64,000 nt of DNA from Lysinibacillus irui. Its GTDB lineage: Bacteria; Bacillota; Bacilli; Bacillales_A; Planococcaceae. The position numbers and the translations under genes are program-made. Numbering within the stretch: position 1 is the first letter of the stretch; every line of letters starts with the position of its first letter. The notes under the pieces are model-generated. The model worked only from the letters and a program-made list of their open reading frames with translations, was not told the origin of the DNA and did not search any database. The stretch is taken from contig NZ_CP113527.1 of the NCBI RefSeq assembly GCF_028877475.1, forward strand, positions 3,775,501 through 3,839,500, in the 5' to 3' direction. Positions 23,508 to 63,826 of this stretch are shown here, piece after piece.

Positions 23508-23648
23508 AAAAAACGATGCCAGGACAGAGCCTGACATCGTACAAGTGTCGGTTTCTATCCACATCCCTACGCAAGTGTTAACTTACAGGTTCAAAGAGTC
23601 AAGGCATTACGTGCCCAGTCTCAGCTGACATCATCAGCTCCCCTTGTG
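23508..23648 (-). promoter_or_regulatory. TPP riboswitch with terminator, upstream of thiT
   Basis: Minus-strand consensus elements in order are GGGGAGCT, GCTGAGA, TGAACCTG, and GCGTAGGGA near 23564–23572. Next comes the expression-platform terminator ACGATGtCAGG/CCTGgCATCGT (23514–23540) with TTTTTT (23508–23513). Thiamine pyrophosphate is expected to shut off thiT. Confidence 0.95.
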
Positions 23649-23781
23649 GTCGTTACATCTGAATTTATTTGAACAATCCCATTGTACGCAAAGGATTGGA
23701 TGATTACAACCTCTTCCATACATTATTTTTTTGAAACTTTGCCGTTTTTCATGCGTAAATATTAAAAAAGGAGGTACAACT

Positions 23782-58105: not shown

Positions 58106-58858
58106 TTATCCGTTCATCACAACTCCACCATTAGGCGTTAAAATTTGACCTGTATAGAAGTCAGCATGATTAGAGGCTAAAAATAGCACACTTTTCGCAA
58201 TCTCTTCAGGTTGCGCTAAACGTTTTAATGGATATTTAGCGGACTCTTCCTCCACATAGTTATCTCCAAACTCTTTTAGAATGTCCGTAAATGTTCCACT
58301 AGGAGCAACAGCGTTGACAAGTATTGAAGGTGCTAACTCTCTAGCTAATGCCTTTGTAAAAGCATTGATAGCGCCTTTTGCCGCTGAGTAATGAGTAAAT
58401 TCCTCACAACCTAGGCTGCCAATATCGGATGATATATTGATGATTTTCCCTGTATTGCGTTCCTTCATTCTTTTAGCTGCTTCACGGCAATTGTAGAAGC
58501 AACCATATAAATGAACTTTAATCATTTTATCCCACTGTTCATCCGTTAAATCTGTAATGCTAGATCCCTGTGCAAATCCGGCGTTATTTACAAGAATATC
58601 AATTTCCCCGAAGTGCTCGTCCATAAATTGATGCATCGCTTGTACTTCTTGTGAGTTAGAAACATCGGCATGGAAAGTTAAAGCTTTCACACCAAACTTT
58701 TCTGCTTCAGCACGTACAGCTTCTGCCTCTTGCTCATTCCCAATATAATTGATTAAAATATTCGCACCATGTTGAGCAAAGCCTAATGCAATGGCCTTGC
58801 CAATTCCTTTACTTGAGCCAGTAATTAATACATTTTTACCTGTAAAGTTAATTTCCAT
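58106..58858 (-). CDS. SDR family oxidoreductase, FabG-like
   Basis: A classical short-chain dehydrogenase of 250 residues. The NAD(P) motif is TGSSKGIG, then NNAG, the catalytic serine lies in NISSDIG and Tyr/Lys in YSAAKGA. C-terminal [15 protein letters not shown] fits. Substrate unknown. ATG at 58858 overlaps the end of the chemoreceptor gene by eleven bases, so translation is coupled. The GGAG is about ten bases away. Confidence 0.88.
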
Positions 58859-60599
58859 CCTGATCATTCTCCAATTTGAATTTTGCAACAAGCCCTTGTA
58901 GCTCTTCAGCTGTTTTTCCTAATGAAGAAGAGGCATCCTTTACTTCCTGCATTGTAGATAATTGCTCTTGTGTAGATTTCGAAACATTTGAAGAGAATTC
59001 TGCTGACTGCTCTGCCGATTGTTTAATATTATTGACAGATGCCGCTACTTCCTCTGATGAGGCAGAGATTTGTTGTGAGGCAGCTGAAATTTCACGTATT
59101 TGGCTAGCTACTTCTTCTGATGAAGTAAGAATTTCTTTAAAGATTTCTCCTACTTCATTCGTGAATGCCATACCCACTTTAACATCCGCTTTCCCTTTCT
59201 CCATTACAGTTATCGAAGCGTTAGAATCAGATTGAATAGAACTAATTAGATTATAAATTTCTGTTGCTGACTGTGAAGATTGTTCAGCTAAACGTCTCAC
59301 CTCATCGGCTACAACAGCAAAGCCTTTACCATGCTCACCTGCTCGTGCTGCTTCAATAGCGGCATTCAATGCTAACAGATTTGTTTGATCGGCAATAGCA
59401 GTAATCAAGCTTACAATTTCACTTATTTTTTTCGTATTGACATGTAAACCATTAATTGTTGTCCCTATTTGTTCAACAGAATCATTAATTAATTCCATTT
59501 GTGCAATAACTTGCTGTACAACTTGATTACCTCGTTCAGAAGCTTGCGAAGCCGAAATAGAAGATTCCGCAGCCGTGTTAGCAGAGTCAGCAATTTGCTG
59601 GATACCTGTAGCTGTCTCTTCCATTGCAGCAGCTGTTTCTTCTGTCATGGTCATAGAAGCTTCAGCATTCTGAGTGATTAGTTTCATATCTTGTGCAATA
59701 TTTGTGGAGCTATTATACGTCTCCCCAGCATGTACCGTTAATTGATTGGCTGCTGAAGAAACATGATTTGAAGTATTTCTTATGTTTAAAATAATATGTT
59801 GTAAATTAGCAACCATTGTACGAATGGACTCAGATAATTTTCCAATTTCATCTTTTGACGTATCTAAATCCACATCGATTAATTCGCCATTGGCAACTTG
59901 ATTTGCAACATTTACTACTTTTTTAAGTGGTTTTAAAAGACGGTCTATAATTATGTAAACTAAAACTAATAAAATTAATATTCCGATAATAGCAATAACA
60001 ATTTGTTTAATAACACTTGTTTTAATTATCGTATTAATATAATCAGCGGAGTAATCAATTCCTAATAATGCAATCAGTTGTCCGTTATCATCTTTAATTG
60101 GACTAAAAACGGTTCTCCAAGAGCCAAAAGGATCTTCAAAAATATCCGTTACTTCCGTACTATTATTTTCAATAGCCTTCTTTGCTGTTTCAACATGTTC
60201 ATCCGCTAAATCAGTAAAAATTTCTCCGGCTTCATACACCTCATTTAAATTGGTTGTATAACCGATTGGGTTGACCCCACCTTCATCTTGAACGTCCCAA
60301 ATATAGCTCCAACTCATAATACCTTGTTGTTCCTGGATCATATCGAGTTGTTTTTGGATCTTTGTAAACTTAGCGTTCTTTTCCCCTTTTTCAGACAATA
60401 AATCTTTTACTTCATCACTATCTAAATTCATAGCTGTCAATAAACCAACACTTTTTAACTCTTGCTCTAAGTCGACAGTCATCCGATTATTTAATTCGCT
60501 AATACTTTGCGAAGTAATAATGGCGATGAGCAGTAACACTACAATTGTAACCGTCAGTAAAAGTTTGTTTTTTAATGAGGCATTTTTTAATAACTTCAT
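58848..60599 (-). CDS. Cache-type methyl-accepting chemotaxis protein
   Basis: A transmembrane receptor of 583 residues. TM1 (about 12–28), an extracellular Cache-like sensor (about 35–195, with [19 protein letters not shown] and [15 protein letters not shown]), TM2 (about 198–220), HAMP, and a signalling region with [21 protein letters not shown] (in part). It is transcribed behind a c-di-GMP riboswitch and heads an operon with an SDR and a sodium:solute symporter. Confidence 0.92.
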
Positions 60600-60631: not shown

Positions 60632-60790
60632 AAAAAAATAACCTATTTCAAAAGAAATAGGCATAAAAGAACATAAACTAGAAATTGATGGATATAACTA
60701 GCAGTCTTTTGCAACCCAGCCATCCTAGCAATTATTGCCTTAGACCTGTAGCTTTGCGTCTCTACTTTTCAGTAAATTTGCCTATATTTC
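60632..60790 (-). promoter_or_regulatory. c-di-GMP-I (GEMM) riboswitch with terminator
   Basis: On the minus strand GACGCAAAGCTACAGGTCTAAGG (split: CGCAAAGCTACAGG, TCTAAGGC) is followed by GCTAGGATGGCTGGGTTGC, matching the GEMM-I consensus (about 60700–60770). Next comes a terminator CCTATTTC/GAAATAGG (60642–60661) with a T-rich run, before the chemoreceptor gene. Confidence 0.93.
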
Positions 60791-60943
60791 CACTCCCAAA
60801 ATTAACACAGCAGGTAAAAGTAGTCAATGCTATCCAGGTAAAATATACATACTTTATACTATTTTACCCTTCGTTAACAAATGGTTGATTGATTGAAAAT
60901 ACAGCAACGTGAAGCATTCATTCACCATTTCTTTTCATAAAGA

Positions 60944-62320: not shown

Positions 62321-63517
62321 TTATGCTGTTTGCATTTCCTTGCTGGAGCTTTTAAGCGTGAGCATAACGATAAAGGAAATACAATATAGTGCTGCTAAGT
62401 AAATCATTACAACTGTCATATCATAGCTTTGTAAAATATAGCCGACAAAGATTGGTGAAAATCCACCAATAGCTCGACCAAAGTTAAATATCGTGTTTGT
62501 TGCTGTACTGCGAATTTGTACTGGATAGAAGCTGCTAATTAATGCACCATACCCTGCAAACATTCCGTTAGAGAAGAATCCTACAACCGCACCACCAATT
62601 AATATAGCTGCTGCACCAGTGGCAAAGGAATAAAGGAACACTGCACAAGCAGATGCTAATAAAAAGATACCAAACGATCGCTTCGCACCAAAGCGATCCA
62701 TAAATCTACCAAATGTCAGCATCCCAATTATCATCCCGACGGCAGTACTAATTGTCCACAATGCTGAGCTTGAGACAGATAAACCTTGCGATTTCTGTAG
62801 CATCGATGGTAACCAAATCATCAGACCATTATAGCCTGCGATTTGAACAGTAGCCATTAAAATTAGAGAAAGAGTCGTTAGTGTAATGCGTGGAGAAGCA
62901 AATAACTGAGCTAGTTTTCCCTTCTCTTGCTTGTTATTATCTTTTTTCTGCGATGCTAACCATTCTGGTGATTCCTCCAGATTTTTACGAACAATAAAGG
63001 CGAAAATCACTGGTAATAACCCAACGAAGAATAATGCTCTCCATCCTAAAGTTGGTAAAATGATGGCACTTAATAATGCTGCTAATATAACCCCATATTG
63101 TGCTCCTACACTTACATACGAAGAAGCTCTACCTTGTTTATTTTTTGGCCAAGCTTCCGCTACAAGCGCCATACCAATACCATATTCCCCACCGGCACCT
63201 AGACCGGCGATAAATCTATAGACATAAACTTGTTCAATGCTTGTTGCTACTCCTGTTAAGGCTGTACCGATAGCAAATAGTATGACCGTATACGTAAACA
63301 CTTTAACACGACCATATTTATCTGCTAACACCCCGAAAATAATTCCACCAAGTAGCATCCCAATATTCGTGATGGATGAAATCAATCCACCTGTTGCAAG
63401 ATCAATATTAAATTCTGCAATAATCATTGTCATGGCAAAAGAAATAAACATAATGTCCATTCCTTCTAAAGTCAACCCAGCCACTGAAGCGACAACGGTT
63501 TTTTTCCGATAATCCAT
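62321..63517 (-). CDS. MFS transporter, aromatic-acid:H+ symporter-like, under PyrR-type control
   Basis: A 398-residue permease with 12 helices. The first helix holds LEGMDIMFISFAMTMI, whose conserved aspartate is typical of AAHS/NiaP-type carriers (DGxD). The loop motif GVLADKYGRVKVF follows TM2, and GAGGEYGIGMALVAE lies in TM4. Family members take up small aromatic acids such as 4-hydroxybenzoate or nicotinate. The PyrR-type attenuator upstream points to a pyrimidine-related substrate; orotate is plausible. That is inference. Confidence 0.83.
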   Translation of the reverse strand: MDYRKKTVVASVAGLTLEGMDIMFISFAMTMIIAEFNIDLATGGLISSITNIGMLLGGIIFGVLADKYGRVKVFTYTVILFAIGTALTGVATSIEQVYVYRFIAGLGAGGEYGIGMALVAEAWPKNKQGRASSYVSVGAQYGVILAALLSAIILPTLGWRALFFVGLLPVIFAFIVRKNLEESPEWLASQKKDNNKQEKGKLAQLFASPRITLTTLSLILMATVQIAGYNGLMIWLPSMLQKSQGLSVSSSALWTISTAVGMIIGMLTFGRFMDRFGAKRSFGIFLLASACAVFLYSFATGAAAILIGGAVVGFFSNGMFAGYGALISSFYPVQIRSTATNTIFNFGRAIGGFSPIFVGYILQSYDMTVVMIYLAALYCISFIVMLTLKSSSKEMQTA

Positions 63518-63641
63518 TCTTTCTAACCTCCAAGTTTTCTAGTTGTCTATCTCTTTTAGTGTTCGAGTGAATGGATTAAAGATGTCTTGTCCATTCTCTT
63601 TTGAAGCCTCACGGGACTTCCTTTAAAAGAGGGATGTGAAC

Positions 63642-63750
63642 AAAAATAAAGCCCTTCTGTCACAGAGGACAAAAGGGCATGCCAAAGCAAAGATATTAGC
63701 TTAAAAATATCATGTAGCCCTTTTCAGCCTCTCTGGACCGTATTAAAGGT
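63642..63750 (-). promoter_or_regulatory. PyrR-binding attenuator upstream of the MFS gene
   Basis: On the minus strand the hairpin CCTTTAATACGGTCCAGAGAGGCTGAAAAGG (split: GGTCCAGAGAGGCT loop at 63726–63739, stem CCTTT/AAAGG) matches the PyrR consensus. AAAAGGGC (63717–63724) can pair with GCCCTTTT (63671–63678) as antiterminator. The terminator is GCCCTTtTGTC/GACAgAAGGGC (63651–63678), followed by TTTATTTTT. Confidence 0.85.
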
Positions 63751-63826
63751 AATTTATATCGTTCATTTATACCGTTCTACATTCTATAAGATTACGAATG
63801 AAAAAGCAATGGTTGAATAGTGGAAA

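Follow-up and report, generated by a model that had tools for sequence, protein, structure and literature searches.

The pyr operons of Bacillus carry PyrR attenuators (Rfam family RF00515), leaders with a binding loop, an antiterminator, and a terminator that score above the gathering threshold, and the leader considered here has likewise all three and passes that threshold. A different use of the protein, PyrR-dependent translational repression of pyr genes, was reportedly described in Mycobacterium smegmatis by Fields and Switzer in 2007. Orotate transporters come from other bacteria: according to an excerpt of PMC12802215, OroP of Lactococcus lactis is an orotate transporter (TC 2.A.7.21.4) that confers sensitivity to 5-fluoroorotate, and an excerpt of PMC13328217 has DctA taking up orotate in Escherichia coli and Salmonella enterica. 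For Bacillus methanolicus, the excerpted text of PMC4342826 gives a PyrR site together with a SAM riboswitch before the MFS genes BMMGA3_09265-09270, and its table places PyrR sites alongside SAM riboswitches, T-boxes, and a yybP-ykoY leader; such co-occurrence may reflect chance Rfam hits or an unexplored pattern. A survey of 211 PyrR sites includes a category of "pyrimidine transporters" (PMC3766115, excerpt), and its supplement may list PyrR-regulated transporters, possibly this family already. Among the matches listed in a search of open-licence PubMed Central titles and abstract openings, neither an MFS orotate transporter nor a tandem PyrR leader appeared. Moreover, no gene for orotate uptake in Bacillales was assigned in the literature surveyed, including the excerpted portions of PMC12802215, PMC3766115, PMC4342826, PMC2965389, PMC10942264, PMC13328217, and PMC4347634.

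The distal attenuator and its conservation

We analyzed a stretch of 64,000 nucleotides from Lysinibacillus irui, here called the window. The first-pass annotation had placed a PyrR attenuator before an MFS gene on the minus strand, and the binding loop, the antiterminator pair, and the terminator all lie where it put them. The leader matches RF00515 at positions 63642 to 63753 of the minus strand with 58.4 bits, above the gathering threshold of 54 (E, 1.9e-5 over the whole 64-kb window and 9.1e-8 over a 301-base stretch). The gene and the distal elements are as follows.

62321 to 63517, minus strand: MFS transporter gene, 398 amino acids, proposed orotate importer (open reading frame; PF07690; clade with homologues in pyrimidine contexts)
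63719 to 63749, minus strand: distal PyrR binding loop, BL1, with loop GGTCCAGAGAGGCT (within the RF00515 match)
63717 to 63724, minus strand: antiterminator 5' arm, AAAAGGGC, which shares bases with the 3' arm of BL1 (sequence; pairs with GCCCTTTT in the MFE fold)
63671 to 63678, minus strand: 3' arm of the antiterminator, GCCCTTTT, which is also the 5' arm of the terminator (sequence; terminator scan)
63641 to 63678, minus strand: intrinsic terminator, hairpin 63678 to 63651, with 11 pairs, a loop of 6, and a T tract (terminator scan)

Sequence and terminator scan agree that the intrinsic terminator is exclusive with the antiterminator overlapping BL1, as a PyrR attenuator demands. The MFE folds contain the antiterminator pairing, and the centroid of a longer stretch contains the terminator instead. 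On the minus strand the terminator scan returned a single terminator, that of BL1, and a scan for sigma-70 promoters came out empty. Over both strands of the window, the strict loop pattern TCCNGNGAGG is found twice, both times within the MFS leader, and its background rate is 8 occurrences per 1.92 Mb; thus, the loop matches are not due to chance. The genome also encodes PyrR, with a product 58% identical to an L116 protein that passes NF003549, and RF00515 matches it at two more sites, which lie at the pyr operon: ahead of pyrR (52 bits, slightly below gathering) and between pyrP and pyrB (62.5 bits). The operon reads pyrR, pyrP, pyrB, pyrC, carA, carB, pyrK, pyrD, pyrF, pyrE, with names given by recognition of the sequences and pyrB separately confirmed. 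That PyrR controls this MFS gene is, in our judgment, close to certain.

Conservation of the leader was followed in orthologous loci, 80 of which were kept from 111 relatives (76 to 96% identical over the best segment), with loops counted within 500 nt upstream and called distal when more than 135 nt from the start. By the strict pattern, 65 loci have a distal loop, 63 a proximal loop, and 50 both; by a relaxed pattern, the counts are 77, 79, and 76, and a simple terminator search found a terminator after 66 of the 77 relaxed distal loops. A second set of 22 loci (the window plus 21), which shares species with the first, gave 18 distal, 20 proximal, and 16 both by the strict pattern and 19, 21, and 18 by the relaxed one. 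Over all 110 loci, at least one strict loop lies within 600 nt in 101 and at least two in 66; these loci include 8 distant relatives (less than 70% identity), which were excluded from the class counts and forced folding described below. The distal loop is mostly CCAGAGAGG and the proximal mostly CC(C/T)GTGAGG. When scored with Rfam, the distal element reached gathering in 12 of 13 loci chosen across genera (the exception being L052) and in 5 of 6 further orthologues (L025 scored 52.7 bits). The scan also picked up the proximal site of L023, at 47.6 bits. The loop is thus conserved in orthologous leaders, as the first-pass annotation required of a genuine PyrR site.

Gene neighbors vary between genera, with the commonest neighbor cluster in 29 of 110 loci, and the MFS gene and its leader therefore appear to travel as a unit. 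Of 31 genomes of the genus, at least 18 have a full copy of the MFS gene among the matches listed. A decayed copy was seen at G017:C2:47062-47331, a fragment covering residues 305 to 394 that is 86% identical and has an internal stop. We also note other RNA elements. Two M-box (magnesium) riboswitch matches lie close together downstream of the MFS gene in L055 (6466 to 6631 and 8063 to 8227), and the window itself contains a c-di-GMP-I riboswitch at 60707 to 60792 of the minus strand (78.5 bits), ahead of a gene at 58848 to 60599 that by eye resembles a chemotaxis receptor, and a TPP riboswitch at 23547 to 23654 of the minus strand (66 bits).

The proximal loop and the start codon

The attenuator at BL1 is as first described, but the leader is not a single-site leader, since it has two PyrR loops, the second of which lacks a terminator. 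This second loop, BL2, lies between the BL1 terminator and the MFS gene and was absent from the first-pass annotation. A permissive scan of positions 63500 to 63800 gave a second RF00515 match at 63505 to 63633 with 36.6 bits (E, 0.0011), below the gathering threshold of 54; the Rfam model also spans a terminator, which is missing at BL2. BL2 and the elements proposed to act with it are as follows.

63596 to 63631, minus strand: proximal loop BL2, CTCTTTT AAAG GAAGTC CCGTGA GGCTTC AAAAGAG (sub-gathering RF00515 match; conservation; covariation)
63590 to 63596, minus strand: GAATGGA, proposed 5' arm of an antisequestor, adjoining BL2 (sequence; duplex statistics)
63569 to 63577, minus strand: switch element AATCCATTC, with the antisequestor arm and the start-codon region as alternative predicted partners (MFE fold; duplex statistics)
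63527 to 63531, minus strand: Shine-Dalgarno sequence GGAGG (sequence)
63511 to 63519, minus strand: GAATGGATT, spanning the start codon and proposed as the sequestered strand (pairs with 63577 to 63569 in the predicted fold)

The core of BL2 consists of a 7-pair lower stem, a 4-base bulge, a 6-pair upper stem, and the hexaloop CCGTGA. The idea that BL2 is a second attenuator was rejected because no terminator follows it. Covariation was assessed over 71 distinct proximal loops, identical loops having been merged, with five measures. Of the stem cells, 89.6% are paired, and 47 cells changed on both sides, compared to 16.8 in shuffles (0 of 500 as high). The paired-cell fraction, the both-side changes, and the covariation score each exceeded every slid version of the BL2 alignment. 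The number of pairs changed on both sides (159 of 500 shuffles) and the number of pair types (56 of 500) were not clearly above shuffles, and these two weaker measures were marginally higher when the alignment was slid by +1. Loop sequence and stem are thus conserved with covariation, with the exception of those two measures of the five.

Might BL1 be the sole functional loop, with BL2 a nonfunctional attenuator, decayed or duplicated, and control exerted by attenuation alone? Such a relic would explain why BL2 falls under Rfam gathering, why no terminator-like site follows it, and why its predicted effect on Shine-Dalgarno accessibility is inconsistent. A relic, however, would hardly be conserved like the distal loop (63 versus 65 of 80 loci, strict pattern), keep a commonest variant of its own together with compensatory changes, or sit, as it does in 23 of 79 leaders, no more than 60 nt from the start. 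We consider a functionless BL2 unlikely and favor a second PyrR site that acts on translation, a role that we hold to be probable.

The position of the proximal loop divides the 79 leaders that have one into two classes. In class A (23 leaders), the loop is at most 60 nt from the start, and the Shine-Dalgarno sequence AAAGGAG belongs to its lower stem, on the 3' strand. In class B (the other 56, including the window), the loop generally lies about 85 to 120 nt upstream of the start and is followed by GAATGGA, a gap, and then TCCATTC with CTC or CTTC, an element with two possible partners, either the loop's 3' side or the Shine-Dalgarno sequence or start codon. The window leader is predicted to fold with AATCCATTC paired to GAATGGATT across the start codon. 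When 76 leaders were grouped into 28 clusters, pairing of the linker element with the Shine-Dalgarno sequence or start beat dinucleotide shuffles (P ≤ 0.05) in 10 clusters and pairing with the 3' side of BL2 did so in 14, and the two alternative pairings used overlapping bases in all 28.

Forced folding of BL2 cut Shine-Dalgarno accessibility in some leaders, for example from 0.65 to 0.14 in L074 and from 0.28 to 0.03 in L110; in others accessibility was unchanged, and in the window both states were equally closed. Control of translation initiation by BL2 is thus favored by where the loop lies and by the duplex statistics, but not consistently by forced folding. A proximal loop was not found in 3 of the 102 leaders so treated (L015, L041, and L072). 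In L041 and L015, a proximal-type loop sits at -420, apparently displaced by an insert of about 300 bases, and the proposed translational control would consequently be broken there. The class A hairpins of L086, L084, and L100 folded no better than shuffles, and thus PyrR would be needed for their stability.

The pyr loci of transporter-bearing genomes offer a comparison. At 12 such loci, 14 strict loops precede pyrP or pyrB, and all are 119 to 192 nt from the start (strict pattern; distances for pyrR were taken to a reference start that appears to lie about 120 nt too far upstream). These 14 loops come from 9 of the loci; two more have a strict loop solely at pyrR, and L194 has none. Homologues of the transporter from other bacterial families have related leaders in some cases. 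A PyrR loop lies at -172 in L160 (48.8 bits) and at -214 in L161 (46 bits), and immediately before the Shine-Dalgarno sequence of L160, L162, L163, and L165 is a hairpin with loop ACAGAGAG, while L161 has a hairpin with CTGTGA. The ACAGAGAG hairpin is perhaps a variant PyrR site. Shuffled sequences folded as well as the hairpin in 5 of 200 cases for L160, 8 of 200 for L162, and 168 of 200 for L161; the folded stretch of L165 ended at the hairpin and excluded the Shine-Dalgarno side, and it says little. Upstream of the MFS gene in L164, L119, and L158, no such loop or hairpin was found. Two conserved loops, covariation of the BL2 stem, and the comparison with pyr loci together make dual PyrR control of the MFS gene likely.

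Computation shows both loops, the terminator, their conservation, the covariation of the BL2 stem, and the context of homologues; that PyrR binds, that translation is affected, what is carried, and which ion is coupled are inferences. At high UMP, PyrR would bind BL1, the antiterminator would be prevented, and the terminator would form, as in the layout of the pyr operon attenuators. Transcripts that escape the BL1 terminator would then reach a second checkpoint, PyrR binding at BL2. In class A orthologues, the lower stem of PyrR-bound BL2 would contain the Shine-Dalgarno sequence, and in class B, including the window, formation of BL2 would release the UCCAUUC/CCUUC element, which could then bind the Shine-Dalgarno sequence or the start codon. 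At low UMP, the two locks would open. The gene product would import orotate, perhaps as orotate/H+, and supply PyrE and PyrF.

The transporter and its probable substrate

The protein was initially described as an AAHS-like MFS permease. That it belongs to the MFS is borne out by PF07690 (181.8 bits against a gathering threshold of 33.4; E, 2.3e-53), and the aromatic acid/H+ symport model TIGR00895 is indeed its best NCBIfam match. Membership in the AAHS family is not supported, as the TIGR00895 score of 284.6 bits is under the cut-off of 418.55 and the protein falls in a clade separate from the AAHS-like paralogue of the same genome, L169. In a tree of 56 proteins, in which L151 was not included and five outgroup rows are long branches, the window protein lies in a clade of 31 (support, 100/100), which joins nine other proteins to form a clade of 40 (100/99); L169 and 15 further rows fall outside it. 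The group of nine, of a catabolic type, has weak support (90/46); six members come from pyrimidine-gene contexts, and L152, L153, and L155 do not. All 40 clade members have residues Q140 and N341, which none of the 16 outgroup rows shows, and the conserved residues Q140, Q225, N317, and N341 lie in helices of the predicted structure (mean pLDDT, 78.7). A fold search with that structure put MFS proteins on top (SV2A, the D-galactonate symporter, SLC37A4, OxlT, and others), which are general MFS relatives and give no information on substrate. An AAHS-type permease for aromatic acids such as benzoate or niacin, with a PyrR leader acquired by chance, would agree with TIGR00895 as the best model; nevertheless, the sub-cut-off score, the separation of the clade of 40 from the paralogue, and a leader conserved across genera without conserved gene order make such a permease very unlikely.

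The context of homologues points instead to pyrimidines. Homologue regions were picked from the top of the matches listed and so are not a random sample, and the context-bearing homologues are 35 to 47% identical. Compared with a reference set, 9 of 21 regions have recognizable pyrimidine genes, 7 with orotate-degradation-like sets and 2 with the gene beside pyrF-pyrE. In the other 12 (L152 to L155, L158 to L163, L167, and L168), of which L167 and L168 fall outside the clade of 40, no reference pyrimidine gene was recognized, and the L119 region likewise showed none. In L150 and L151, pyrF and pyrE close the pyr operon, the MFS gene comes next, and after it stand a regulator, which we take to be PucR-type, and carbamoylase-like and dihydroorotase-like enzymes. 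L151 has PyrK- and PyrD-like genes too, and G386, the source of L150, has a PyrD match in the corresponding place. In L116, the pyr operon is followed by carbamoylase, PyrK-like, PyrD-like, PucR-type, MFS, and dihydroorotase-like genes; L117, judged by eye, is arranged like L116, and L118 and L166 have enzymes of the L116 type with an IclR-type regulator. L157 has PucR-type, MFS, carbamoylase, PyrK-like, and PyrD-like genes, and in L156 carbamoylase, MFS, and PucR-type genes are close to pyrB and pyrC. Apparent orotate-degradation sets, the parts of which vary by locus, were thus noted in L150, L151, L116, L117, L118, L157, and L166, and those of L150, L151, L116, and L117 are directly downstream of pyr biosynthetic genes.

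From gene content, a set of this kind can run from orotate to dihydroorotate, carbamoylaspartate, and aspartate, a route that occurs in orotate-fermenting clostridia. Enzyme models were applied to the neighbors in two sets (L116/L027 and L118/L030). The PyrD-like neighbors exceed the dihydroorotate dehydrogenase cut-off NF005574, and the PyrK-like neighbors fall below theirs. The carbamoylases pass TIGR01879 and also the allantoate amidohydrolase subfamily model NF006771, and the dihydroorotase-like proteins exceed the cut-offs of both dihydroorotase TIGR00857 and allantoinase TIGR03178.

A second line of evidence comes from genomes that lack recognizable early steps of pyrimidine synthesis. 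L164 has pyrF, pyrE, and the MFS gene (44% identical) on the same strand; in G389, the genome from which it comes, pyrB, pyrC, pyrD, and carB are all over cut-off, and the transporter there would therefore be an addition. In L165, the MFS gene (47% identical) is divergent from pyrF-pyrE, and in its genome, G364, the best matches to pyrB (131.6 bits; cut-off, 236.95), pyrC (22.8; 279.05), pyrD (23.6; 270), and carB (71; 1027) are all below cut-off. G364 has pyrE (153.8 bits; cut-off, 106.8) and a PyrR 61% identical to that of the window genome; it is 99% complete in about 90 contigs, and a single assembly gap might in theory hold pyrB, pyrC, pyrD, and carB. G284 likewise has no pyrB, pyrC, or carB above cut-off and retains pyrF and pyrE, as well as a PyrD-like gene that scores 168 bits, short of its cut-off, with PyrR matches upstream of the MFS gene (48.8 bits), pyrF (49.8), and the PyrD-like gene (40.3), all under gathering. 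In 10 of 12 scanned genomes, pyrB, pyrC, and pyrD are over cut-off, the exceptions being G364 and G284. Within Bacillales, pyrB is present in all 42 genomes scanned, namely G110, G134, and 40 that have a close orthologue, and the idea of a pyrimidine auxotroph thus finds no support there. Support of the auxotroph type comes from G364 and, more weakly, G284 only.

The first-pass annotation had proposed an orotate importer on chemistry alone. The proposal now gains independent, if indirect, support from the pyrimidine genes in 9 of 21 regions and from G364, which keeps pyrE-pyrF and the transporter without pyrB, pyrC, pyrD, or carB over cut-off. Given the degradation sets together with G364 and G284, an orotate importer fits both contexts best; dihydroorotate, carbamoylaspartate, and uracil would each fit one of them less well, and an exporter would fit neither. 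Orotate is quite probably the substrate.

A different pyrimidine-related substrate (dihydroorotate, N-carbamoylaspartate, uracil, or an allantoin-like ureide) seems improbable, a little more so than a functionless BL2. The double matches of the neighboring enzymes speak for it, in that both scanned amidohydrolases pass the allantoinase as well as the dihydroorotase model and both scanned carbamoylases pass the allantoate amidohydrolase subfamily model, and G284, with its PyrD-like gene, could use dihydroorotate. The PyrD-like neighbors over NF005574, however, make sense with entry as orotate, dihydroorotate would be of no use in G364 because the best PyrD match there is 23.6 bits, and pyrE-pyrF would be unnecessary for the import of uracil or allantoin. 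Export of excess orotate or another pyrimidine must also be weighed, as the direction of MFS transport cannot be read from sequence. Repression by PyrR at high UMP, however, has the wrong sign for an overflow exporter, and an exporter would be hard to reconcile with neighboring degradation genes or with a genome that makes no orotate; we regard it as the least likely reading of all, behind even the AAHS-type permease.

We therefore return to an orotate importer that feeds PyrE-PyrF and is controlled twice by PyrR on one mRNA. This joint statement we hold as no more than somewhat better than even, because it is bounded by its weakest part, pyrimidine genes were seen in 9 of 21 regions, and the node joining the catabolic-type group is weak (90/46). 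A broader version, to which we give about an even chance, is that PyrR guards one mRNA at two steps and that the gene comes from an undescribed family of MFS orotate importers that spans several families of the class, with versions tied to biosynthesis and to degradation. We propose that the biosynthesis-tied versions are those with the PyrR leader or pyrF-pyrE neighbors and that others are tied to orotate degradation.

Comparison with known systems

An orotate importer candidate with an easy 5-fluoroorotate readout is testable at once and is a possible counter-selection marker. If the proposal is true, some "aromatic acid transporter" annotations would be corrected. Moreover, an attenuator and a translational site for one protein in one leader would make a clean system in which to ask why a gene is locked twice.

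Each of the nearest systems shares a part of this arrangement. Unlike in the pyr attenuators of Bacillus, the target here is an MFS gene outside the pyr operon, and a second PyrR loop without a terminator follows. The proposed block of translation initiation by PyrR resembles that reported for the M. smegmatis pyr genes, but here it would come after an attenuator in one leader and act in part through an antisequestor/sequestor switch. OroP shares the proposed substrate; its TC number lies outside 2.A.1, the MFS. DctA shares orotate uptake, proposed here for the window protein, but is a C4-dicarboxylate transporter and not a member of the MFS. The AAHS paralogue L169 has TIGR00895 as its best family, as does the window protein, with both below cut-off; it differs in lying in a separate clade, the Q140/N341 pair being found in all 40 clade members and in none of the 16 outgroup rows. 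Finally, BMMGA3_09265-09270 of B. methanolicus likewise places MFS genes under PyrR and another RNA element, and those genes are grouped among SAM-riboswitch operons.
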